NCBI RefSeq assembly: GCF_016899935.1
Contig: NZ_JACJJK010000010.1
Span: 1-64,000 of the forward strand
DNA length: 64,000 bases
DNA from: Olsenella uli
GTDB taxonomy: Bacteria > Actinomycetota > Coriobacteriia > Coriobacteriales > Atopobiaceae
Reading direction: 5' to 3'
In this document: one piece after another, positions 39,943-50,923 of the stretch
How positions within the stretch are numbered: the stretch's first letter is position 1
Layout of the letters: every line of letters begins with the position of its first letter
The notes under the pieces: model-generated
Seen by the model: only the letters and a program-made list of their open reading frames with translations
Database searches by the model: none
Told to the model about the DNA's origin: nothing
Program-made: the position numbers and the translations under genes

Positions 39943-40179
39943 ATGATCACAATCCCTCAGGGCCCGCTCGCGGCGCCCGCCACCGACGACGACGCGGCGG
40001 CCGCCCGCCGGCGCAGGATCGCCGAGATGCTCCGCGACGGGGACGACGTGATGGTCACCCCGAGCGGCACCCTGCACGAGCCCGGCCAGGCCGCGCCCGA
40101 CGGCTCCGCCGCACCCGCCGCCTCGGGGGCCGAGGCCCCCGTCGAGCTCGTCGTGCCCACCGGCAAGCTGGCGGCCTGA
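39943..40179 (+). CDS. Small acidic protein opening the conjugation operon
   Basis: 78 residues, starting MITIPQGPLAAPATDDD, with a basic helix (AAAARRRRIAEMLRDGD), then VMVTPSGTLHEPGQ, an Ala/Pro stretch and the end VELVVPTGKLAA. The ATG has GAAAGGGGACGG upstream. The SGTLHEP segment resembles the DGTIHV motif of three proteins at the other end of the operon. In BilABCD-type systems the gene before the E2 encodes the ubiquitin-like protein, but I see no clear beta-grasp fold and no terminal Gly-Gly; a Gly four residues from the end (PTG-KLAA) could be exposed by processing. Function unknown. Confidence 0.72.
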   Translation: MITIPQGPLAAPATDDDAAAARRRRIAEMLRDGDDVMVTPSGTLHEPGQAAPDGSAAPAASGAEAPVELVVPTGKLAA

Positions 40180-40180
40180 C

Positions 40181-40654
40181 ATGGCGTCCTTCTACTGGTA
40201 CGAGCGCAACCCGCAGCTGCTGGAGGCCGAGAAGGGCGCGATGGCCCAGTTCTTCCCCGGCTTCCGCCTCGAGAAGCTCGACGACGGCCGGCTCTACTGG
40301 GTCGGCAACGTGAACCCGCGCGGCAAGGCGGGCGGCACCTGGACGCTCATGGCCATCTACGAGCACGACCATCCCAACAACCACGCCCGCTACGGGTCGT
40401 CCGTGCGCGTCTACACCGTCAAGCCCGACCTCAACGAGCTCTGCCGCGCCGCCGGGACCCTCCCCCACGTCCTGCGCGACGGCCGGGGCGACCTCTACCT
40501 CTGCACCGCCCGCCAGCAGGACGTAGACAGCGGCGAGCGCGACGTCACCTCCGCCGCCAAGTCGCTCGGCTGGGCCGTCAAGTGGATCTTCCTCGTCGAG
40601 AGCTGGCTCGCCGGAGAGATCTCGGACGAGGTGTTCAACCATGGCACCTATTAG
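40181..40654 (+). CDS. E2-like (ubiquitin-conjugating-enzyme-like) protein
   Basis: 157 residues. The order of elements matches an E2 fold: an N-terminal helix, strands with DGRLYWVGNVNP and GGTWTLMAIY, then His64-Pro65-Asn66 (the HPN motif that marks E2 enzymes), and after PHVLRDGRGDLYL the candidate catalytic Cys108 (LYLCTARQQD), ending in Trp-rich helices (WAVKWIFLVESWLAGE). E2 proteins carry a modifier as a thioester and pass it to a target. It lies between the small first gene and the JAMM peptidase, the order of bacterial E2-JAB-E1 operons. Assignment rests on motif and context. Confidence 0.8.
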   Translation: MASFYWYERNPQLLEAEKGAMAQFFPGFRLEKLDDGRLYWVGNVNPRGKAGGTWTLMAIYEHDHPNNHARYGSSVRVYTVKPDLNELCRAAGTLPHVLRDGRGDLYLCTARQQDVDSGERDVTSAAKSLGWAVKWIFLVESWLAGEISDEVFNHGTY

Positions 40655-41759
40655 CCTGCGGGCCCTCCTGCGCCGCCTGGGGCTCGGCGGCCGGCAGGCC
40701 CCGCCGCCACGCCCCGGGGCGGGCGTCCGCGCGCCCCGGCCCGTGCCCCACGCCGCCGAAGACGCGGCGCGGCGCTCGCCGGCGGCCGCGACGGGCCACG
40801 CCGGGCCCTTCTCGCCCGCGGGCCTGCGCGTCCGCTTCACGCGGCGCGCCTGGGCCTCCGTCCTCTCGGAGACCCTCACCGAGGTCGGGACCGAGACCGG
40901 CGGCATCCTGCTGGGATACCGCGACGGGAGCGACTGGCTGGTGGTCGAGTCCATCGACCCGGGCCCCAACTCGGTCTTCCAGATGGCGTACTTCGAGTAC
41001 GACCAGCCCTACGTCACGCACCTCGCCAACCGCATCTCGCGCCTCTACGAGCGGCAGCTCGACGTCGTGGGCCTGTGGCACCGCCACCCCGGCTCCTTCG
41101 ACCGCTTCTCGGGCACCGACGACGGCACCAACGCCACCTACGCGCAGCTGAACCCCCGGGGCGCGCTCAGCGGCCTCATCAACGTGGACCCGGAGCCGCG
41201 CCTCACGCTCTTCCACGTGGCGGCGCCGCTCTCCTACACGCGCGTGCCCTTCGAGGTGCTCGACTGGCGGGAGAGCCTCGACGCGGCGCCGCTGCGCGAC
41301 CCCCGCGAGCTCGCCGCGACCGTCGCCCGCGAGAACGCCCGGGCGCTCTCCGGCGAGGAGACGGCCACAGGGACGATCGAGGTCGCCGCGCCCGAGCTCT
41401 CCCTCGAGACGCTCGCCGCGCGCTGGGCCGCGCTCGTGGCCTCCGATGCCGTGCCCGCCGCCCCCGGGCTCGTCCGCGACCTCGCGGTCTGGACCGACGA
41501 CGAGCTCGCCGCCGCGAGCGACGAGCTGCAGGGGGACGCGGCCTTCCTCGCCGAGCGAGGCGTCTCCCTGAGCATGCGCGCCGGCGCGGACGACTCCGTC
41601 GCGCTCTCGGCCACCCGCGGGGGCGAGCGGCTGGGCCTCGGCGCGCTCGCGCTCGACCGCGCCTCGGGGCGCCTCCTCCTGCTCGTCCCCGACGACGCCT
41701 CCCGCGCGCTGCCCTACTCGTCCGGCCGCATCGAGCGGGCGCTGCGGGAGCGCCCGTAG
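40641..41759 (+). CDS. JAMM/JAB metallopeptidase (deubiquitinase-like)
   Basis: 372 residues. After a Pro/Arg-rich start, the MPN+ domain (about 62-210) has all JAMM ligands: Glu85 in TETGGILLG, His147 and His149 in LWHRHPGSFDRFSGTD, Ser157 and Asp160. Such peptidases cut isopeptide bonds or mature ubiquitin-like proteins. The C-terminal half (about 230-372) is a separate alpha/beta domain that I do not recognise, ending LPYSSGRIERALRERP. The ATG overlaps the E2 gene by 14 bases, preceded by GACGAGGTG. Together with the E2 and E1 neighbours it makes a complete conjugation and removal set. Confidence 0.88.
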   Translation: MAPISLRALLRRLGLGGRQAPPPRPGAGVRAPRPVPHAAEDAARRSPAAATGHAGPFSPAGLRVRFTRRAWASVLSETLTEVGTETGGILLGYRDGSDWLVVESIDPGPNSVFQMAYFEYDQPYVTHLANRISRLYERQLDVVGLWHRHPGSFDRFSGTDDGTNATYAQLNPRGALSGLINVDPEPRLTLFHVAAPLSYTRVPFEVLDWRESLDAAPLRDPRELAATVARENARALSGEETATGTIEVAAPELSLETLAARWAALVASDAVPAAPGLVRDLAVWTDDELAAASDELQGDAAFLAERGVSLSMRAGADDSVALSATRGGERLGLGALALDRASGRLLLLVPDDASRALPYSSGRIERALRERP

Positions 41760-41781
41760 GCCGTCCCCGGAAGGAGAGCCC

Positions 41782-43074
41782 ATGCAGACGGCAACCCAGA
41801 GAAGACACCTCCGCGCGCTCGTACCGGGCACCCTTCTGGACGCGCGCGCGACCGGCCCCGTGCGCGGCGTCTACCACGCCGACTCGGGCGTGCTCAACCT
41901 CTTTGCCCCGGACACCCCGCAGTGGGAGGCCGCCGGGGAGGTCGGGGCCATCCTCGGGAGCCGCGACGAGCTCCCCGCCTGGGCGCGCGCCGTGGCGGAC
42001 CGGGAGCTCCGCGCGCCCCTCGCCAAGGCGGACCTGCTCGCCCTCATACGCGGCGAGCAGGACGCGGCCGCCGAGAAGGACCGCGCGCCCGAGGAGAACG
42101 CGCCCGAGGGCGCGGCCTTCTACCTCTTCTGGGAGGCGGAGGACGGCACCGAGCCGGCCCTGCGCTGCGTGGGCCCCGAGGGCGCCCACGAGGTCGAGCG
42201 CTACGACCTGCACCGCGAGCTCTTCTCGCGCAACACCGGCATCCTGGAGACGAGCCTCATGGCGCGCAAGCGCGTCGTCATCCTGGGCTGCGGCTCGGTG
42301 GGCAGCCTCGTGGCGCTCGAGCTCGCCCGCGCCGGAGTGGGGGGCTTCCTGCTCGTGGACACCGACGTCCTCGAGTACCACAACCTCTGCCGCCACCAGT
42401 GCGGCGTCTCGGACGTGGGCCGCTACAAGGTCGACGCCGTGCGCGACCGCATCCTGGACATAAACCCCGCTGCCCGCGTGCGCGCCGAGCGCGGCCGCGC
42501 GGAGGACCTGCCGCGCGAGGTCTGGGAGCGGTGGGCGGTCCCGGGCGAGACGCTCGTCGTCGGCTGCGCGGACAACCGCGAGGCGGACGTCTACGCCAAC
42601 GGGCTCGCCGTGCTCTACGGGGTCCCCTTCCTCTCCGTCGGCTTCTGGGAGCGCGCCTTCGCCGGCGAGCTCTTCTACTGGCTGCCGGGGCGCGACCAGC
42701 CCTGCTACCGCTGCGCGCTCGGCGAGGGCGGCGGCCTCTCGCAGCGCGTGAGCGCCAACCACCACATCTACACCAACCAGAGCGACCTCGCGGCCGTGAG
42801 CTTTGAGCCCGGCATCTCGGCGGACATCGACTTCGTCACGGTCGTGGGCGTCAAGCTCGCGCTCGACATCCTGAACGAGGGCGAGGGCGGCTTCACGCAG
42901 CGGCTGCTGCCCACGCTCAGCCAGTACACGCTCGTCTGCAACACCAACGACCCCGCCGTCGGCGGCCCGATGGCGGAGATCTTCAGCTACCCGCTCCAGG
43001 TGACGACCTCGCTCAAGGTGGGCTTCCGCGACGGCTGCCCGCCGTGCCGCTGCGTCGGAGAGGGCGAGCGGTGA
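41782..43074 (+). CDS. ThiF/E1-like adenylating enzyme
   Basis: 430 residues. An N-terminal region of about 155 residues (partly low-complexity) precedes the E1 Rossmann domain: VVILGCGSVGSLVALELARA (nucleotide loop 169-175), LLVDTDVLEYHNLCRHQ, GRYKVDAVRDRILDINPAA, and VVGCADNREADVYANG. Two cysteine pairs, CYRC and the C-terminal CPPCRC, look like the structural zinc site of this family. E1 enzymes activate the C-terminus of a ubiquitin-like protein with ATP. A ribosome site (GGAAGGAG) precedes the ATG. The stop overlaps the GTG of the next gene (GTGA). Confidence 0.9.
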   Translation: MQTATQRRHLRALVPGTLLDARATGPVRGVYHADSGVLNLFAPDTPQWEAAGEVGAILGSRDELPAWARAVADRELRAPLAKADLLALIRGEQDAAAEKDRAPEENAPEGAAFYLFWEAEDGTEPALRCVGPEGAHEVERYDLHRELFSRNTGILETSLMARKRVVILGCGSVGSLVALELARAGVGGFLLVDTDVLEYHNLCRHQCGVSDVGRYKVDAVRDRILDINPAARVRAERGRAEDLPREVWERWAVPGETLVVGCADNREADVYANGLAVLYGVPFLSVGFWERAFAGELFYWLPGRDQPCYRCALGEGGGLSQRVSANHHIYTNQSDLAAVSFEPGISADIDFVTVVGVKLALDILNEGEGGFTQRLLPTLSQYTLVCNTNDPAVGGPMAEIFSYPLQVTTSLKVGFRDGCPPCRCVGEGER

Positions 43075-43349
43075 GCGACGACACCCGAATCGAGGCGGAG
43101 CTGCAGAGCAGCATGCGCGCGCTGGGCGAGACGAGCTCGACCTTCGGCCGCAGCTGGGGCGCCTTCAAGAGCGACCTCGCCGGGGACCCGCACGTCCCCG
43201 AGCTCGAGGGCGCCTACGTGGCCCCGATGCTGCGCTCCCAGACCGAGCTCGTGGAGGCGCTCGACGCCCTCAGGCGGGCGGCGCGGCGCTTCGAGGAGAC
43301 GAGCGAGGCGGCCGAGAAGGACGCCCGCGCGCACGACGGGAGGAGATGA
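43071..43349 (+). CDS. Small helical, WXG100-like protein
   Basis: 92 residues, predicted almost fully helical, with a hinge near TFGRSWGAFKSDLAGDP and a second helix SQTELVEALDALRRAARRFEE. Size, helical hairpin shape and a central Trp-Gly resemble WXG100-type secretion substrates, but the Trp is earlier (about residue 29) than usual. GTG at 43071 overlaps the E1 stop. It lies directly before the FtsK-like ATPase, the classical position of such proteins in type VII loci. The assignment is tentative. Confidence 0.6.
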   Translation: MSDDTRIEAELQSSMRALGETSSTFGRSWGAFKSDLAGDPHVPELEGAYVAPMLRSQTELVEALDALRRAARRFEETSEAAEKDARAHDGRR

Positions 43350-43353
43350 ACCC

Positions 43354-46300
43354 GTGGCCATCCCCCACCTGCAACGAGTCGACGCGGTCCTCCACGACCT
43401 GGCCGGCTACGCGCTCGACAGCGCCAAGGAGGTCCTGCACGTCGGGGCCGACGTCGCCGAGACCGTGGTCGAGCTCGAGGAGGAGGACCTCCACGCCATA
43501 GAGGCCGCGACCACCCAGTTCAGCGAGCGCCTGGGCGCCGAGTGGGACGCGACCGTGGTGCCCCTGTTCGGCCGGATGGACGACGCCGCCATCCGAGTCG
43601 ACGCCGCGGACGCCTACGCGCGCTCCGTCTCGCCGACCTACGCGCAGGCCCGCGCCGGCGCGCCCGGCCTCGGCGAGGCGCGCGCGAGCGGCGAGCGGCG
43701 CGGGACCGACGCCCCGCTCGAGGATCTGGTGAGCCAGATGGAGGCACTCGCTGCGCAGGCGGAGCGCCTGCGCGACCAGGTGACGCAGAACGCGCGCCTG
43801 CCGCGCCTGCTCCAGGACCGTTCGCTCGCGACGGCGCTCGCGGACGTCGTGGAGCAGGCGAAGGACTGCTACCTCTGCACCGGCGACGACCTCATCCGCC
43901 GGGAGCGCGAGCGCCTCGTCGCGCGGCTGGAGCGCGCGTGCGCACCTCGCTCCAACGCGCAGGAGGTCGAGCGCATCCAGGCCGCCGGCGCGCGCAAGCA
44001 GCACCGCATCGCCGACGGCGCACGCGAGGGCTTCGCGCGCATCCTCTCCCCGCGCGACGTGGACCTGCTCGACGAGCTCGCCAACCTCTCGGTCGAGGGC
44101 GTGGCCGACCCCGGCGCGCGCACGAGCGACTTCCTGCTGCTCGGCTGGCTCGTCCACGAGCTGCCGGAGGGGCCGTTCACCCCCGAGTTCACCGACGTCA
44201 CGCCCGTCCTTCTCGACATCCCGCGCGCCTTCCGCGCCTGCTACGGGGACCGTCTGGACGACGGCCGCCTGATCGTCCCCCAGCTCGTCGACCGCAGCGA
44301 CAACTGCTCGGTCGCCGTGGCGGGCAACCGCGCGGACGCCCTCCCCGCCATCTCCGCCCTGGCCGCCCTCGAGCTCGCCGGGACGCGGGCGGGGTGCCAG
44401 CGCTTCGTCGTCATCGACTGCTCGCCCGGGCACCTCGGCCTCGCGCAGTGGCTGCCCTTCGTCGAGTCCTGTCCCCAGCTGCTCGACGAGCCGCTGCTCT
44501 CCTCGCTCGACGAGGCGGCGCCCGTCCTGCAGCGTCTCGCCGAGCGGGCCGTGAGCGCCACCTACGACTCGGCGCTCGACCTGGCGGAGCGGACCGCCGC
44601 AGAGGACGGCTCCCACGCCCCGCTCACCACCGTCATCGCGATCAACGTGCCGTGCCTTCTGGACGAGGCCCACATCGCGCCGCTCGTGAACATCGCCCAG
44701 CATGGCATGCACGCCGGCGTGAACCTGATCGTGAGCACGCTGCCGGCCGACGACCGGGACCGCCGTCGCGGCCTCTACGACCTCCTGCAGAGCATGCCCG
44801 AGGAGAGCCTCGTCATAGACTGCCCCGATGGGGACAGCTACGCCGTCTGGGGCAACCGCCTCGTGCTCGAGCCCACGGACTGGTCCGTCCTCGGCCGCGT
44901 GCGGGAGGGCCTCGAGCGGGCCGAGCGGGCGGCCGAGCTGCGCTACCGGGGCATCGCGGGGCTCGTCCCCGCCGGGGAGGTCGGGCGCGGCGACGCCTCG
45001 GAGGCGCTCCGCGTGCCCTTCGGCCTCGCGCCGGACGGCTCGGCCGTGGCGCTCGAGCTCGGCGACGCCGTCGCCGCCGGCCTCTCCCACTTCGCGCTCG
45101 CCACGGGCACCACCGGCACCGGCAAGTCCTCGCTGCTGCACACGCTCATCCTCTCCGCCCTCTCCCGCTACGCGCCGAGCGAGCTCGAGCTCTACCTGCT
45201 CGACTTCAAGCAGGGCGTGGAGTTCGAGGTCTACCGCAGCTACCGCCTGCCGCAGGTCCGCGTGGTCGCGCTTGACGCCGACCAGGCCTTCGGCGTGAGC
45301 GTGCTCGAGGCGCTCGACGCCGAGCTTCGCCGGCGCGCCCAGCTCTACCAGGACCTCGGCGTCACGAGCTACGCCGCCGCGCGCCGCGCGACCGCAGAGC
45401 CCCTCCCCCGCGTCCTCGTGATCCTGGACGAGTTCCAGGTCCTGCTGAACGAGGCCACCGACCGGCGCGCGGCCAACCGCGCCGCCCAGATCATGCGCAC
45501 CTTCTTCCAGACGGCGCGCGCCTTTGGCATGCACTTCGTCATGGCGACCCAGGCGCTCTCGTCGCTTGGCGCCGGCTGCAGCATGGGGCTCTCCGACCTC
45601 TCGCAGGTGAACGTCCGCATCGGCCTCAACAACTCCGAGGCGGAGCACGCGCGCCTGTTCGGCGAGCGGGCGGCGCGGGACGCGCGCCGGCTCATCGGGG
45701 ACGCCAAGGGCTCGGGCGCCTACCTCGTGGACAAGGACGCCGCCGAGCCCGACGTGCGCGCCTTCCGCGTCTGCTACTGCGACGACGCCGAGAAGGACCG
45801 CGTGCTCTCCGAGGTCCAGGCGCGCTGCGCGGATGTGACGGCCGAGCCGACCTTCGTCTATCGCGGCACGGACATCCCGCGTCTGAGCGCCTCGCCCGCC
45901 TTCTCCGCGCCCGGCGGCGCGCCGGCGGAGCGCGGGCGGGCACGCCTGATCCACCTCGGCGAGTCGGCGCGCATGGGACGGCAGGCCGCCCTGGAGCTCT
46001 CGCGCATGCGCCGCTCCACCCTGTTCGCGCTGACCTCGGACGTCGAGACGTGCGACCGGCTCGCGGCGACCTACGTCGCCGGCGCCGCCTGGGACGCGCC
46101 CGCAGCGGACGCCCCGAGCGTCTACGTGCTCGACGCCCACGTCATCGGGGGCGACGGCGCCGCGCCGGCCGTCGAGGCCGTCTGCCGTTGGGCGGGCGGT
46201 CGCGCGTGGGTGGCGCGGAGCGCCGCCGAGGCGGTGGCGCTCCTCGACGAGCTGGCCGGCCTCCTCGAGGGACGCGGGCAGGACGGCGCGGGCGAGGGCC

Positions 46301-46869
46301 GCACGGCCCACCTCGTCCTCGTGGACCACCAGCTCTCGGAGCCCCTTGCCGCCCTCGTGGAGGGCCGCGAGCTCTCCCCCTGGCGCGCCGACGACGAGCC
46401 GGCGCCCGCAGGCGCGCCCGCGCCCGAGCCGGCGCGGCCCGCTGCAGGCGCGGTCCCCGGTGTCGAGGGCCTCGACGCCCTTCTCGCCCGCCTGGACGCC
46501 CTCTCCGCCGGCGCCGACGCCCCGGCCGAGCCGGCCGCCCCCGCAGCCGCGCAGGACGCCCCCGCGCGCCCGCGCGCCGGCCGCGACCTGCTGGCGCGCC
46601 TGCTCGACGCCGGCCACGCGCGCGGCGTCAACGTGGCGCTCTTCTCGTCCGACTACCTCGTCGTGCGGGACCTGCGCTACGAGGTGCTGCCCAAGATGGC
46701 GTGGCGCGTGGTGAGCGGCCTCTCGGACGACCAGTGCCACGCGGTCGTCCCCGACGTGAACCCCGCCGCGCTGCGGTCCAACACCGCCGTGCTCTGGGAC
46801 GGGGCGCACCCGGCCCTCGCCTTCAAGCCCTATCGGATCGACGCGGAGAGCCTGCCCGCGCTCCCCTAG
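43354..46869 (+). CDS. FtsK/SpoIIIE-type (EssC/EccC-like) ATPase
   Basis: 1171 residues. About 270 N-terminal residues form coiled coil. A degenerate ATPase-like domain follows (FVVIDCSPGHLGLAQWLPF; PLTTVIAINVPCLLDEAHIA), then a canonical FtsK domain with Walker A GTTGTGKSSLLHTLIL (Lys591) and Walker B VLVILDEFQVLL (Asp692-Glu693), plus ARAFGMHFVMATQALSSLG. A third, degenerate domain and an Ala/Pro linker complete the protein. No membrane helix is obvious, unlike EccC or EssC. Three ATPase-like domains with one catalytic fit a type VII-like motor. GTG start with GGGAGGAG upstream. Confidence 0.85.
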   Translation: MAIPHLQRVDAVLHDLAGYALDSAKEVLHVGADVAETVVELEEEDLHAIEAATTQFSERLGAEWDATVVPLFGRMDDAAIRVDAADAYARSVSPTYAQARAGAPGLGEARASGERRGTDAPLEDLVSQMEALAAQAERLRDQVTQNARLPRLLQDRSLATALADVVEQAKDCYLCTGDDLIRRERERLVARLERACAPRSNAQEVERIQAAGARKQHRIADGAREGFARILSPRDVDLLDELANLSVEGVADPGARTSDFLLLGWLVHELPEGPFTPEFTDVTPVLLDIPRAFRACYGDRLDDGRLIVPQLVDRSDNCSVAVAGNRADALPAISALAALELAGTRAGCQRFVVIDCSPGHLGLAQWLPFVESCPQLLDEPLLSSLDEAAPVLQRLAERAVSATYDSALDLAERTAAEDGSHAPLTTVIAINVPCLLDEAHIAPLVNIAQHGMHAGVNLIVSTLPADDRDRRRGLYDLLQSMPEESLVIDCPDGDSYAVWGNRLVLEPTDWSVLGRVREGLERAERAAELRYRGIAGLVPAGEVGRGDASEALRVPFGLAPDGSAVALELGDAVAAGLSHFALATGTTGTGKSSLLHTLILSALSRYAPSELELYLLDFKQGVEFEVYRSYRLPQVRVVALDADQAFGVSVLEALDAELRRRAQLYQDLGVTSYAAARRATAEPLPRVLVILDEFQVLLNEATDRRAANRAAQIMRTFFQTARAFGMHFVMATQALSSLGAGCSMGLSDLSQVNVRIGLNNSEAEHARLFGERAARDARRLIGDAKGSGAYLVDKDAAEPDVRAFRVCYCDDAEKDRVLSEVQARCADVTAEPTFVYRGTDIPRLSASPAFSAPGGAPAERGRARLIHLGESARMGRQAALELSRMRRSTLFALTSDVETCDRLAATYVAGAAWDAPAADAPSVYVLDAHVIGGDGAAPAVEAVCRWAGGRAWVARSAAEAVALLDELAGLLEGRGQDGAGEGRTAHLVLVDHQLSEPLAALVEGRELSPWRADDEPAPAGAPAPEPARPAAGAVPGVEGLDALLARLDALSAGADAPAEPAAPAAAQDAPARPRAGRDLLARLLDAGHARGVNVALFSSDYLVVRDLRYEVLPKMAWRVVSGLSDDQCHAVVPDVNPAALRSNTAVLWDGAHPALAFKPYRIDAESLPALP

Positions 46870-46896
46870 CGCGGGCGTCGCAGAAAGGAGCGCCGC

Positions 46897-47178
46897 ATGG
46901 CACGCGGACAGCAGGCCGTCGAGGCGATGAACGACATGGTCAAAAGCCTCACCCGGACCCTCGAGCAGCAGAACGAGCTCTGCGAGGGGCTCGTGAGCAA
47001 CTACGAGGTGGTGCTCGGCCAGTGGAACGACGAGAAGTGCGAGGAGCTCGGCAACGTCATCCGCGACATCGTCGTGAAGATGCGCGCCCCCTACGCCGAC
47101 ATCCACGAGTGCGTCACGCGCATCCAGCTCCTGCGCGGCGCCCTCGAGGACTATCTGAACACCCACGTGTCCGCCTAG
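46897..47178 (+). CDS. WXG100-like helical hairpin protein
   Basis: 93 residues of two helices around a turn with Trp43 in NYEVVLGQWNDEKCEELG. Trp at position 43 is where WXG100 proteins have their WXG turn, though here it reads WND. No signal peptide. A good ribosome site (AAAGGAG) precedes the ATG. It follows the FtsK-like ATPase, as secreted partners do in type VII loci. Two cysteines at 29 and 48 and one at 71 are unusual for this group. Confidence 0.65.
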   Translation: MARGQQAVEAMNDMVKSLTRTLEQQNELCEGLVSNYEVVLGQWNDEKCEELGNVIRDIVVKMRAPYADIHECVTRIQLLRGALEDYLNTHVSA

Positions 47179-47198
47179 CGACCGGGGGCGGAGGCAGC

Positions 47199-47714
47199 AT
47201 GAGCTACGACCTGGAGAGACTCGCGGCGTTCCGCGAGAGCGCCCGACGCCTCGACGAGGTGACGCGCGAGCAGGACCGCACCGTCGAGCGCATCATCGAC
47301 GACGCCGAGCGCGCGATCGACGAGCGCGTGCGCGCGCAGCGGGAGCGCCGCGAGGAGGCCGAGCGCACCGCGCGAACCGCCCGCGACGAGCTCTGGCGCA
47401 TCGACCGCGACGAGCGCTACGCGCGCTCGGACGACGAGAAGCTCGAGTACGTGGAGCGGACGCGGCGTCAGTCCGTCCTTCTCGCCGAGGCGGAGGCGGA
47501 GGCGACCGAGCGCGCCCGCCGCGCCGCCGCGTGGGAGGACGAGCTCGACGACTGCCGGCGCGAGTTCGAGGAGGCGGCCTTCCGCGTGCGCCAGCTCCTG
47601 AACGGTCCGGGCAACCGCTACGCAGAGTCGCTCGGGATGGCCGTCATGCGCCTCGAGGAGGCGCTCCAGGCCTACTACGACACCGACGTGCACGTCAGCG
47701 GCATGCAGCGATAG
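47199..47714 (+). CDS. Coiled-coil protein of unknown function
   Basis: 171 residues, highly charged and predicted to be one long coiled coil: SYDLERLAAFRESARRLDEV, ERRDEEAE-type Arg/Glu heptads, and a less charged C-terminal segment (FRVRQLLNGPGNRYAESLGM). ATG with GGGGGCGGAGG upstream. It may bind the helical neighbours or the ATPase. I do not recognise a family. Confidence 0.68.
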   Translation: MSYDLERLAAFRESARRLDEVTREQDRTVERIIDDAERAIDERVRAQRERREEAERTARTARDELWRIDRDERYARSDDEKLEYVERTRRQSVLLAEAEAEATERARRAAAWEDELDDCRREFEEAAFRVRQLLNGPGNRYAESLGMAVMRLEEALQAYYDTDVHVSGMQR

Positions 47715-47728
47715 AGAAGAGGATGACG

Positions 47729-48508
47729 ATGATCAAGCTTCCCAACGCCCCCGACGAGCGCCTCCAGACCGGCACGACCGTGCCCCTGCCCGCGCTCAAG
47801 ACCGCGCTCGAGCGCGTGATTGGCCAGACCGGCTTTCCCGCGACGGTCGAGCTCACCCAGGCCAAGCCGGCGGGCTTTCTCAAGGACCCGATCGAGTGCC
47901 TCGTGATCGCGCACGCCACGGACCGCAAGAACTACCAGCAGGTGGTCCTCACGCAGGCGCAGGCCGCCGTGTCGGCCCGACTCATGGTCTACTACGTGGG
48001 CAACAACAAGTACACGCGGGCCATGCGCGCCGGAGAGATGGTGCAGCACCCCTCGCTCACGACCGACCTGATCTCCGGCGTGACCCGCATGCTCAACGCC
48101 GACAAGGCCCAGCAGCAGGAGATGTACTTCGAGGACCTGGGGGGCGTGGTCGTGCAGGCCATCGAGCTCGTACGCAGCGGCGAGGTGCGCGCCGAGGCCC
48201 CGCGCCCCGCGGCCGCGCCGGCACCGGCCCCACGTCCCGCTCCGGCCCCGCAGCCCGCACCCGCGCGGCCTGCCCCGCAGCCCGCCGCCGCGTCGCGGCC
48301 CGAGCCACGGCCGGCGCCCGCGCCCCAGCCTACCTACCGGACCGTCCCCATGGACCAGGTCGCCGGCGAGAAGGTCCGCGCCACGTGCGCGTGCCCCGAC
48401 TGCGGAGCCGCGCTCACCGTGACGGTCCCCAACGCAAACTGCCTCGTCAACATCACCTGCACCGAGTGCGGGCGCACGTTCCCCATGGAGGTCCGTCGCC
48501 ACAGCTAG
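47729..48508 (+). CDS. Two-domain protein with C-terminal zinc ribbon
   Basis: 259 residues. The first 150 form a compact domain (LPALKTALERVIGQTGFPAT, LKDPIECLVIAHATDRKNYQ, QAAVSARLMVYYVGNNKYTR) of unknown family. A Pro/Ala-rich linker (about 155-205) leads to a zinc ribbon, CACPDCGAALTVTVPN, then CTECGRTFPMEV. The start at 47729 has AGAGG at good spacing; an ATG two codons upstream is too close to it. The zinc ribbon resembles those of the next two proteins. Confidence 0.72.
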   Translation: MIKLPNAPDERLQTGTTVPLPALKTALERVIGQTGFPATVELTQAKPAGFLKDPIECLVIAHATDRKNYQQVVLTQAQAAVSARLMVYYVGNNKYTRAMRAGEMVQHPSLTTDLISGVTRMLNADKAQQQEMYFEDLGGVVVQAIELVRSGEVRAEAPRPAAAPAPAPRPAPAPQPAPARPAPQPAAASRPEPRPAPAPQPTYRTVPMDQVAGEKVRATCACPDCGAALTVTVPNANCLVNITCTECGRTFPMEVRRHS

Positions 48509-48536
48509 CGACGGGCCGCACGCACGAAGGAGTCAC

Positions 48537-49049
48537 ATGGTCGACCACAGCCACCCCCGCATCCGGATCGGTTCCGACGGGACCATCCGGATGGACGACA
48601 AGGACAAGAAGAAGACGAACGTCCAGGTGCGCGCCGACGGCACCATCCACGTCGGTGACGCACATGGCCCGCAGACGGCGACGTCACAGGGCGTCACCCA
48701 GGGCGACTTCCGCGTCCTCACCTGCCCCAACTGCGGCGAGCGCCTCCGCGCGATCGAGCCCAACCGCGACGTCACCGTGGAGATCGACTGTCCAAGGTGC
48801 CACAAGACATCCTTCTTCCACCTCACGGCCGTCCCGGGCGCCGCGCCGACACCGGCGCCGGCACCGGAGAAGAAGCAGGTCGAGAAGGGCAACGGCTGCC
48901 TCGTGAGCCTCCTTGGTGCCGCCTTTCTGGGCGTCTTCTGGGGCTTCGTCTGCGGCGTGCTCGGCATCCCCCTGCCCCCTGACATCGTCGGCTGGGTCGT
49001 GGCCATCATCTCGTTCTTCTACCTCTGGCTCGCGGCCGACCCGCTCTAA
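48537..49049 (+). CDS. DGTI-motif protein with zinc ribbon and membrane helices
   Basis: 170 residues. The N-terminus carries two copies of a short motif: PRIRIGSDGTIRMDD and VQVRADGTIHVGD. A zinc ribbon follows (CPNCGERLRAIEP, CPRCHKTSFF), then a Pro-rich linker and a C-terminal hydrophobic hairpin (GCLVSLLGAAFLGVFWGFVC and IVGWVVAIISFFYLWLA). Expected to be a membrane protein with a cytoplasmic ribbon. AAGGAGTC precedes the ATG. It is a paralogue of the next gene. Confidence 0.72.
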   Translation: MVDHSHPRIRIGSDGTIRMDDKDKKKTNVQVRADGTIHVGDAHGPQTATSQGVTQGDFRVLTCPNCGERLRAIEPNRDVTVEIDCPRCHKTSFFHLTAVPGAAPTPAPAPEKKQVEKGNGCLVSLLGAAFLGVFWGFVCGVLGIPLPPDIVGWVVAIISFFYLWLAADPL

Positions 49050-49073
49050 CCTCGACACGCCCTCAGGAGACCC

Positions 49074-49592
49074 ATGACACGTCACGACCACCCACGTATC
49101 CGCATAGACGCCGATGGCACCATCCACCGAGACGACGAGCCGACCGAGCCCAACACGAGCGCCGACGCCCCTGTCCGCGACGCCGCGCAGGTCGCCGCCG
49201 AGCGCGTTGCCTGCGCCACGGCCCAGTCCCAGCGCACGGCCCCAGACGACGTTGGCTATCTCCTCCTCACCTGCCCGAGCTGTGGGACAAAGATCCGCAT
49301 CGCCCGGCCCGCCGACGCGCACACCACCATCCGGCTCACCTGCCCGAAGTGCCGCCGGGAGCACGTCTTCCGCCTCGGCGACGACCCAAAGCCCGCCTCC
49401 GCGCAGAAGAGCCCGTCCTCCCTCAGCCTCAAGGGCTGTCTCCTGGCATTTCTCGCCTTTGAGGGTTCCGCCGTCGCCCTCGTGGCCCTCCTCATGGGCC
49501 TCGGACACCTCGGCATCTTTCTTGCCATGGTGATCGGAGCATTCATCGCCCTTCTCGTCTACTCCGCCTACGTCAAAAGGAAGTCATCGTGA
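49074..49592 (+). CDS. DGTI-motif protein with zinc ribbon and membrane helices, paralogue
   Basis: 172 residues with the same layout as the gene before it: HPRIRIDADGTIHRDDE, a polar stretch, a zinc ribbon (CPSCGTKIRIARP, CPKCRREHVFRL), and two hydrophobic segments (GCLLAFLAFEGSAVALVALL, LGIFLAMVIGAFIALLVYSA). The stop overlaps the GTG of the following gene (GTGA). It probably arose by tandem duplication, though the linker differs. Confidence 0.72.
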   Translation: MTRHDHPRIRIDADGTIHRDDEPTEPNTSADAPVRDAAQVAAERVACATAQSQRTAPDDVGYLLLTCPSCGTKIRIARPADAHTTIRLTCPKCRREHVFRLGDDPKPASAQKSPSSLSLKGCLLAFLAFEGSAVALVALLMGLGHLGIFLAMVIGAFIALLVYSAYVKRKSS

Positions 49593-49834
49593 GCGACACC
49601 AAGCCCAAGACCGCAGCCCCCAAGACCGCCGGACGCAAGGTCTCCGTGGGCTCCGACGGCACCATCCACGTGAAGAACGCCCCCAAGACCGCAGCCTCTT
49701 CCCAGCAAACGCCGCAGCCCCAGCCCGCCCAGGAGGACAACGGCGGATGCGCCGGCTGCCTCGGTCAGCTCCTCGGCCTGTTCCTCTGGGCCATGATCAT
49801 CATGTTCGTGCTCCACCTGCTCGGGCTCGCGTAG
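49589..49834 (+). CDS. Short DGTI-motif membrane protein
   Basis: 81 residues. A Lys/Ala/Pro-rich start leads to KVSVGSDGTIHVKNAPK, a second polar linker and one C-terminal hydrophobic segment (GQLLGLFLWAMIIMFVLHLL) preceded by GGCAGC. It is the last gene of the operon, translated from a GTG overlapping the gene before. It lacks the zinc ribbon. A 31-bp palindrome follows 26 bases after the stop. Confidence 0.68.
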   Translation: MSDTKPKTAAPKTAGRKVSVGSDGTIHVKNAPKTAASSQQTPQPQPAQEDNGGCAGCLGQLLGLFLWAMIIMFVLHLLGLA

Positions 49835-49890: not shown

Positions 49891-50156
49891 TCTCGTCGTC
49901 GCCGTCTTTGGATGACAGTCACTTCGAGACACCACGCACGACCAACTGAAGACGCCTTCGTACCAGAGAAAACTCACCTCATCCCAAGATTGTGCACTCG
50001 CAGGTCAGACACTCCCGTTCGCCGATGCGTTTTCAAATCTCTTTTCCATCACGAGCAATTGACCTGCCCCGTCAGGTTCGCGCCAGCTCCCTGGCAGACA
50101 GGGATTTCTCCAAACGTATAGGCTCTCCCCACAGCTTGAGAGCCAGGGGGGCAAAC
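49891..50156. other. Low-GC intergenic stretch before the toxin-antitoxin genes
   Basis: About 52 % G+C by count over two lines, against about 70 % elsewhere. It holds a hairpin (GGCTCTC/GAGAGCC, 50121-50144) and a -10-like TATAGG near 50117. No supported gene. The composition suggests the segment up to about 50940 was acquired from another source. Confidence 0.5.
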
Positions 50157-50198
50157 ATGAGCCAAAGGCAGCGGCAGCTTCGGCGAAGGTTGCGATAT

Positions 50199-50228
50199 CC
50201 TTCTGGTAAGGAATTCCTTACCAGAAGG
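50199..50228 (+). promoter_or_regulatory. 30-bp perfect palindrome over the antitoxin ribosome site
   Basis: CCTTCTGGTAAGGAA and its exact complement abut each other. The right arm ends in CAGAAGG, which is part of the AGAAGGAG ribosome site of the GTG at 50238. It could be the operator where the AbrB-type antitoxin represses its own operon, or an RNA hairpin that hides the ribosome site. Confidence 0.7.
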
Positions 50229-50237
50229 AGCGGAGCC

Positions 50238-50522
50238 GTGGCAGATGTGATTGACGTTGTAAAGATAACCTCCAAGGGGCAGATAACACTGCCCGCCAGC
50301 GTGAGGTCGGTCCTTTCCGTCGGGGAGGGGGATCGGGTCATCTTCATCCGAGCCAACGACGGAAGCATCCTGTTGCGAAACAGCAATCTCGAGGCGCTCC
50401 TCGAGGCGCGGGACGCGTTCGAGGGCGCTGCGGAGGAGGCCGGACTCTCCACAATGGAGGATGTAACCCAACTCGTCAAATCCGTGCGCTCGACACGTCG
50501 AGATGATGCGTCATGCGGGTGA
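50238..50522 (+). CDS. AbrB/MazE-type antitoxin
   Basis: 94 residues from GTG at 50238, which has AGAAGGAG at ideal distance. The swapped-hairpin AbrB domain is VVKITSKGQITLPASVRSVL then SVGEGDRVIFI at the N-terminus; the C-terminal part (ALLEARDAFEGAAEEAGLST) should bind the toxin. An upstream ATG at 50157, also with a good ribosome site, would add 27 residues and place the palindrome inside the gene. The end overlaps the toxin start by about ten bases, the usual arrangement of such pairs. Confidence 0.85.
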   Translation: MADVIDVVKITSKGQITLPASVRSVLSVGEGDRVIFIRANDGSILLRNSNLEALLEARDAFEGAAEEAGLSTMEDVTQLVKSVRSTRRDDASCG

Positions 50523-50923
50523 TGCTTGACACGAACGTCCTCATCTCCGCCATCATCTTTCGTTCACCCACACTGTCCGGCGTTGTCGAAATCGCCTCAA
50601 GACCGGGAAACCGTCTGCTGCTGCCCACGTTCGTCCTCGACGAGTCACGGGAGGTCGTCAGCAGGAAGTGGCCAGGGCGACGTGCGGCATTCGAGAGGTT
50701 CGTCTCAGCCCTCTCGTTTGATGTCGTGACCACCCCGCAGGGCAGCTCCGAGGACCTCCCCTACATCCAGGACCCAGATGACTACCCCGTCCTTCTCTCG
50801 GCACTCACAGGATGTGCCAATGTGCTCGTTACCGGCGACAAGGACTTCGGGGGCGTGGAGGTCCCCGATCTGGCAATCATGACGCCAGCCGAGTTCGTCA
50901 AGCGCTTTGGATGCGACAGCTAA
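50513..50923 (+). CDS. PIN-domain toxin (VapC-like ribonuclease)
   Basis: 136 residues. The PIN fold and its acidic residues are visible: MLDTNVLISAIIF (first Asp), LPTFVLDESREVV (Glu), and LVTGDKDFGGVEVPD (Asp pair) near the C-terminus. This subfamily (PIN_3, putative toxin COG1569 type) pairs with AbrB-like antitoxins. It would cleave RNA when free of antitoxin. The start may be ATG at 50513 or at 50522; both lack strong ribosome sites, in line with coupling. Confidence 0.85.
   Translation: MRVMLDTNVLISAIIFRSPTLSGVVEIASRPGNRLLLPTFVLDESREVVSRKWPGRRAAFERFVSALSFDVVTTPQGSSEDLPYIQDPDDYPVLLSALTGCANVLVTGDKDFGGVEVPDLAIMTPAEFVKRFGCDS

Follow-up and report, generated by a model that had tools for sequence, protein, structure and literature searches.

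A conserved small protein encoded with E1-, E2- and JAB-like enzymes and an EccC-like FtsK ATPase in Olsenella uli: a candidate protein-tagging operon

We analyzed a 64,000-nucleotide stretch of the Olsenella uli genome (assembly GCF_016899935.1, contig NZ_JACJJK010000010.1, positions 1 to 64,000; hereafter the window) and the operon at 39943-49834 within it, which joins a small gene termed p1 and a cassette of E2-, JAB- and E1-like genes to an FtsK-type ATPase, several small proteins and membrane proteins. The window forms the beginning of contig C10 in a genome of 2.1 Mb, which falls in the same taxonomic order as G277 (G and L numbers are our handles for genomes and loci). All twelve genes lie on the plus strand with 11 intergenic gaps of -14 to +28 bp, in agreement with the original prediction of twelve co-directional genes with gaps under 30 bp or overlapping stops. 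There are three gene overlaps (-14, -4 and -4 bp), and the two that had been predicted at 43071 and 49589 are both GTG starts that overlap the preceding stop by 4 bp. A Pfam scan of the operon proteins placed JAB, ThiF and FtsK domains above cut-off and returned no match for E2, sm1 and p8. The genes are as follows (TM, transmembrane; CBASS, cyclic oligonucleotide-based antiphage signaling system).

39943..40179, + strand: p1, candidate modifier of 78 amino acids, directly upstream of E2
40181..40654, + strand: E2-like conjugating enzyme with Cys108 (PADLOC CBASS E2 profile, 6.8e-12)
40641..41759, + strand: JAB/JAMM isopeptidase, extended at both the N- and the C-terminus (Prok-JAB, 5.4e-9)
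41782..43074, + strand: E1-like adenylating enzyme of ThiF fold (ThiF, 1.2e-28)
43071..43349, + strand: sm1, small protein between E1 and FtsK
43354..46869, + strand: EccC-like FtsK/SpoIIIE ATPase with no TM-like segment (PF01580, 1.1e-23)
46897..47178, + strand: sm2, small protein with Trp43 and a C-terminal LExYL motif (alignment and class survey)
47199..47714, + strand: p8, Glu/Arg-rich, probably coiled-coil, bearing, as sm2 does, an LExY-type motif close to the end
47729..48508, + strand: p9, a domain of about 150 amino acids, a Pro-rich linker and C-terminal CxxC pairs; stand-alone homologues elsewhere
48537..49049, + strand: membrane protein with CxxC pairs and two DGTI motifs (from sequence)
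49074..49592, + strand: membrane protein with CxxC pairs and one DGTI motif (from sequence)
49589..49834, + strand: single-TM protein with a GSDGTIHV motif (from sequence)

The gene at 39943-40179 had been spanned by the original prediction but given no reading, and it proved the most informative of the twelve. Its product is Ala-rich, contains no Cys in the window, and carries the stretch AAAAxRRxIAExLR, an [IV]x[IV]xxxGT[IVL]-like stretch and a conserved C-terminus, P-x-G-x-L-A(A). Wherever it forms a gene of its own, which is the case in nine loci, p1 lies immediately 5' of E2 (the window, L002, L003, L004, L005, L009, L021, L078 and L079), and in a tenth, L010, three p1-like units are fused to the E2. 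A hidden Markov model of the nine p1 proteins found this fusion at 3.4e-7, whereas the next open reading frame (ORF) in the L010 locus scored 0.34. An alignment of seven p1 proteins shows no variation at M1, P5, A18-A21, R23, I26-E28, L30, R31, G42, P72, G74, L76 and A77. The P-x-G-x-L-A C-terminus, which ranks among the best-conserved parts of p1, is kept in all nine proteins, those of L078 and L079 included, and every one of them ends in Ala. A survey of 296 genomes of the class gave p1 matches in 42 at E<=0.05; 36 of these were partial matches (1.5e-4 to 0.05) and were dropped, whereas the six kept (<=6.4e-26) are exactly the six genomes that bear the E2. Given its position before E2, its fusion to E2 and its conserved C-terminus, we propose that p1 is the protein modifier of the E1-E2-JAB cassette, a role read here from sequence.

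The cassette enzymes resemble those of CBASS, as had been predicted. The E2 matches the PADLOC CBASS E2 profile over residues 13-144, and the E1 matches the PADLOC CBASS E1-E2 profile (1.4e-29) as well as ThiF in Pfam, where the JAB protein matches Prok-JAB. An E2 fold for the product of 40181-40654 had been named beforehand as a test of the prediction. An AlphaFold (AF2) model of E2 made from eight sequences (predicted local distance difference test score, pLDDT, 76.8; predicted template modeling score 0.75) was closest in a VIA structure comparison to 8yjy_B, a CBASS CdnG-E2 (Z 9.6, 133 residues aligned, root-mean-square deviation 3.9); CdnG-E2 rows led the comparison (Z 9.6 and 9.2), followed by UEV and UFC1 and then by Cap2. 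Foldseek returned nothing for the model at E<=0.001, its best row being Ubc13 at 0.09, and its top rows were mostly E2 enzymes; the E2 profile had no match among PDB sequences. On the strength of the AF2 model, the VIA score and the PADLOC match, we accept the E2 fold. For E1, the nearest PDB sequences are ThiF, MccB and UBA5, with Cap2 ranking lower, and the best PDB profile match is MccB (1.5e-16).

The catalytic residues of the cassette are conserved. Cys108, put forward earlier as the candidate active-site residue of E2, is invariant in all eight aligned E2 proteins. The HPN motif noted at residues 64-66 is kept only as HP-x (HPH in L009, HPQ in L010) and comes after the third strand in the model; the invariant P95-H96 upstream of Cys108 is probably the better counterpart of the catalytic HPN. 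The JAMM motif is complete as predicted, with E85, H147, H149, S157 and D160 invariant in 7/7 aligned JAB proteins (the L005 and L021 rows of this alignment begin too early). In E1, G169, G171-S175, D193, D195, N201, R204, Q206, K216, C308 and C311 are invariant in all seven proteins, so that the predicted nucleotide loop GCGSVGS and paired CxxC hold at the Gly and Ser positions and at C308 and C311, but not at the loop Cys, which is Val in L010. Judged by conserved residues alone, E1, E2 and JAB are probably catalytically competent. In L010, reading by eye places a second E2-like region (FPHP...YIC) at the N-terminus of the JAB protein (L010:7673-9106, minus strand).

The sole plasmid matches to E1 at E<=1e-20 were two Bradyrhizobium records, and the one inspected holds a CBASS-like operon with a cyclase. 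E2 had no match on plasmids or phages at E<=1e-3, and a scan of viral contigs with E1 gave a single match, to a contig already known. The Bradyrhizobium operon (L145:4005-10375) encodes JAB, a ThiF E1, the cyclase, an endonuclease effector and a TIR protein; the ORF adjoining its E1 (L145:5042-5509) had no match to our E2 profile and none in PADLOC at 0.001.

The E2 occurs in 3/140 genomes of the family, a count that includes the genome of the window, and in 6/296 of the class (seven at E<=0.01, with G323 dropped as a match at 0.007 inside a 13016-amino-acid frame). Among 396 genomes of the phylum four matched, and after G357 was dropped (0.007 over about 46 positions) the remaining three were all already known. 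FtsK matched in 9/296 class genomes at E<=1e-45; four of these cover part of the profile only, and four of the five that cover it in full bear the E2. Strong sm2 matches fall in the same five genomes (7/296 before G012 and G023 were dropped, at 0.003 and 0.004). The original prediction had called for a search for the same gene order in relatives, and the order does recur: cassette and FtsK stand together, in the same order and on the same strand, in six loci (the window, L004, L005, L009, L021 and L078). These belong to three families (f1, f2 and f3) and one phage-like contig, with L004 and L005 being close relatives; the L079 sequence stops at E2. FtsK identity across the joint loci falls to 29-30%. 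Between the window and L021, which belongs to another family, identity is 71% for E2, 49% for E1, 47% for p1, 42% for JAB, 37% for sm2 and 30% for FtsK, which makes E2 the slowest of these proteins to change. Additional genes in L009 and L021 encode a stand-alone p9, a membrane protein with DGSI or DGTI, repeat proteins of Sel1 type (by eye) and a radical SAM enzyme; the radical SAM gene lies upstream of the operon in L009 (5720-7141) and downstream in L021 (4275-5687), and the two are 56.7% identical.

The predicted Walker A/B FtsK domain at 591/692 and its assignment to the FtsK/EccC kind are both upheld. PF01580 covers residues 555-736, K591, D692 and E693 are invariant in the six aligned proteins, and TIGR03924 (EccCa) matches residues 548-791 at 2.5e-32, although with 112 bits against a cut-off of 509. 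The ATPase also matches defence ATPase profiles in PADLOC (SspH, 1.1e-17; mads_8, 5e-16). Homologues of sm1 lie between E1 and FtsK in L004, L005, L009, L021 and L078, and the four compared show a Trp followed by DP. A small protein with Trp43 as in WXG100 had been predicted: Trp43 of sm2 is invariant in 5/5 proteins, but its context is W-N-D or W-D-D, not W-x-G, and neither sm1 nor sm2 matches a WXG100 profile at E<=1 in Pfam or 0.5 in NCBIfam. p8 gave weak matches only (SMC, 0.17; DndD, 0.001). Homologues of p9 stand alone in L009, L021 and L081; no known fold could be assigned to p9 with confidence, the best match to its AF2 model (pLDDT 71) being AMPK/KA1-like at Z 7.0, no higher than the tool's background of 7 to 8.

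The operon shares with type VII secretion (EccC/EssC plus WXG100) an ATPase domain nearest EccCa and small partners with a conserved Trp. It differs in the W-N-D context, in an ATPase with no TM-like segment by hydropathy (none in the four FtsK proteins scanned) and in the lack of a match to any other type VII component among the operon proteins, the rest of the genome not having been searched for one. The predicted type VII secretion is therefore not supported, given the absent WXG100 match, the absent TM-like anchor and the want of a further component in the operon; secretion across a membrane by the FtsK machine is possible.

FtsK loci of related kinds pair the ATPase with other partners. 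In L034 (genome G133), FtsK, a p8-like protein (by eye) and sm2 lie beside protein kinase, VWA and PP2C genes (L034:3794-13190), and no E1, E2 or JAB match was found in the 19.9 kb read. Among four further FtsK loci, profiles identified Hsp70 in L081 and L083; L081 has a TPR protein with a DnaJ match below cut-off, L082 and L083 have DnaJ-type starts by eye, and L080 has neither by eye. A homologue of p9 (8e-38) is encoded in L081 as well, as is a radical SAM enzyme (1e-33). L034, L081 and L083 share FtsK and small proteins with our operon (by sequence, sm2 in L034 and p9 in L081), but have no E1/E2/JAB or p1 match in the stretches read. The clusters of Hsp70, FtsK and a small protein at L081:287-9572 and L083:2769-9567 come from two genomes of the window's own genus.

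Zinc-ribbon membrane proteins had also been described, a description that holds as far as CxxC pairs and profile matches below cut-off go. CxxC pairs occur without a TM-like segment in 47729-48508 and together with one in 48537-49049 and 49074-49592; 49589-49834 has a TM-like segment and no zinc-ribbon match. The last three proteins share [IV]x[IV]xxDGTI near the N-terminus, and p1 holds a looser relative of this motif. A nucleotide pattern encoding DGTIH plus a V, I or M matched in 51/232 class genomes; at least three matches were found only in G277, G291 and G309 (five each), all E2-bearing, and two each in E2-bearing G000 and in G186 and G298, which do not belong to the E2 genomes. In G291 and in G309, four of five matches are on contigs other than the operon's; the three readable off-operon proteins of these genomes bear DGTI, two of them behind CxxC pairs. 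In two cassette-free relatives, G112 has two DGTI ORFs and G097 one, all metabolic-looking, and a further G097 match could not be read as an ORF. These observations hint that the DGTI proteins are partners of the cassette.

Type II CBASS is among the described systems closest to the operon. The operon's E1, E2 and JAB match CBASS profiles, and the CBASS E2 is nearest to the E2 model. According to a published study (PMC10097602), Cap2 of type II CBASS conjugates cGAS, a protein without a ubiquitin fold, through a C-terminal Gly or Ala; p1, here the candidate substrate, ends in Ala. The operon differs in having E1 and E2 as separate genes, a small p1 where the substrate would be, and an added EccC-like FtsK; moreover, ten of the twelve proteins (all but the last two, which are short membrane proteins) had no match to a cyclase (cGAS/DncV-like nucleotidyltransferase) in PADLOC at E<=0.5. 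One TIR-effector model in PADLOC is matched over its JAB part by the operon's JAB protein (1.7e-6). The best NCBIfam match of JAB (3.4e-14), shared by E1 (1.1e-19), is cap2_3 (NF058523) of the 6A-MBL anti-phage system, but both lie far under the model's 320-bit cut-off and no MBL-fold match was found in the operon. An E1-E2-JAB cassette is shared with the Bil, Bub and FtsH-ternary ubiquitin-like protein (Ubl) systems, from which the operon differs in having no recognized beta-grasp Ubl and no RING E3 or MoxR/vWA among its matches. In Bil, the BilA Ubl occurs together with other Bil proteins. Bub was compared through PMC13373217 and one PDB match (BubCD, 1.5e-5). FtsH-ternary systems, according to PMC7159879, carry a Ubl-E2 fusion, comparable to the p1-E2 fusion of L010, and their JAB is predicted to release the Ubl. 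The combination of E1/E2/JAB, EccC/FtsK and p1 was not found in the literature searched, which excluded most subscription papers; within that literature the operon matches no described system, as first suggested. We read it as a variant of CBASS-type conjugation, possibly with a new modifier.

Our account of the operon, plausible though somewhat short of probable, is that it forms a horizontally acquired, reversible protein-tagging circuit. E1 would adenylate the C-terminal Ala of p1, p1 would move to Cys108 of E2 and on to target proteins, and the JAB enzyme would remove it again. The cassette would be coupled to the soluble EccC-like ATPase with WXG-like sm1, sm2 and p8, together with p9 and the DGTI membrane proteins. 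Tagging would most likely act as an on/off control of the motor or of its membrane partners, standing where related FtsK loci have a kinase/VWA/PP2C set or an Hsp70, and the likeliest role would be in conflict or anti-phage defence.

Several observations weigh against this account. p1 is of low complexity, and comparison with Pfam, PADLOC, PHROGs and PDB sequences linked it neither to a Ubl nor to any other notable family; it ends in Ala where a Gly might be expected; and several p1 proteins show a stretch similar to the C-terminal one at their N-termini (e.g., VPAGRMA), so the end motif may serve for binding instead of conjugation. The DGTI pattern follows the cassette imperfectly: E2-bearing G000 is no richer in it than G186 and G298, E2-bearing G029 lacks the strict pattern and has DGSI, and the single match of E2-bearing G167 lies outside the operon. 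It is conceivable, if unlikely, that p1 is a regulatory or binding partner of E2 and that the conjugated protein is a DGTI membrane protein, sm2, p8 or a ThiS/MoaD-type protein encoded elsewhere. Such a role would fit the N-terminal fusion of p1-like units to E2 in L010, the P-x-G-like stretch at both ends of several p1 proteins and the likeness of the p1 strand motif to DGTI; however, among the proteins whose ends were compared, neither those of sm2, which end in SA, RV, RV, SL and RF, nor those of p8 have a conserved small C-terminal residue, whereas the C-terminus of p1 is so well kept. A RiPP-like pathway (ribosomally synthesized and post-translationally modified peptide), in which E1 acts MccB-like on a peptide p1, with maturation by a radical SAM enzyme and export through the FtsK machine, would accord with the MccB profile match of E1 and with the radical SAM genes adjoining the operon in L009 and L021. 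We consider it very improbable: the window operon has no radical SAM gene, none was seen by eye (no profile search) among the L005 ORFs or the two L002 ORFs viewed, L081 has radical SAM and FtsK but no p1 match at E<=1e-3, E2 and JAB accompany every p1 whose locus extends far enough, and the p1 of the window is free of Cys.

The remaining objection concerns the link between the two halves of the operon, which the original prediction had treated as one system, to be doubted if the blocks occurred independently in related genomes. To a degree they do. L002, L003 and L010 (genomes G291, G309 and G134) have the cassette without this FtsK, with partial ATPase-region matches only in a search that covered eight chosen genomes, and L034 (G133) has the FtsK block without the cassette. 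Such cases would be expected if the cassette and the FtsK/WXG-like machine were independent neighbours in one mobile island. We find this quite unlikely, since six loci retain the same order and strand with FtsK as low as 29-30% identity, and DGTI membrane proteins trail the cassette whether FtsK is present (window, L004, L005) or absent (L002). Together in six loci and yet also found apart, cassette and FtsK block are linked modules and not one obligate system; "one system" was too strong, but the link is real.

If p1 is conjugated as our tagging account supposes, it would join the CBASS cyclases and Pup among the tags that lack a ubiquitin fold. If the account is true as a whole, the operon would amount to a new type of protein-modifier circuit in bacteria and, to our knowledge, would hold the first E1-E2-JAB cassette tied to an EccC-like motor. 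The apparent swap of modules (kinase, Hsp70, tagging) would offer a way to probe the role of an uncharacterized FtsK family, and p1 is small enough for easy testing. A more far-reaching version, which we hold to be doubtful, makes p1 a new modifier class: a tag of 63-78 amino acids that ends in P-x-G-x-L-A, is not beta-grasp and, to judge from its composition, is probably disordered for the most part. E1 would activate this tag, E2 would carry it and JAMM would remove it, and at times it would be stored as a tandem "poly-p1" on E2. It would mark DGTI membrane proteins to control the EccC-like motor, and bacteria would swap phosphorylation, chaperone and tagging modules on one motor core.

The operon sits in an insertion between the housekeeping genes efp and asp23, which are separated here by 11.3 kb. 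In the relatives' loci inspected the two genes are adjacent in 11/11, with gaps of 128-285 bp in the nine measured. An asp23 orthologue was found in 19 of the 20 genus relatives searched (E 1.4e-57 or better), G093 being without. The insertion includes one further pair of genes, between the operon and efp, which we do not claim as members of the system:

49992..50923, + strand: MazE-type antitoxin and PIN-domain toxin

Elsewhere, too, the operon keeps mobile company: terminase, portal, C5-methylase and resolvase genes lie upstream of it in L078, and in L079 a profile identifies one large serine recombinase, to which reading by eye adds two. Its place in such islands suggests a possible function in conflict.

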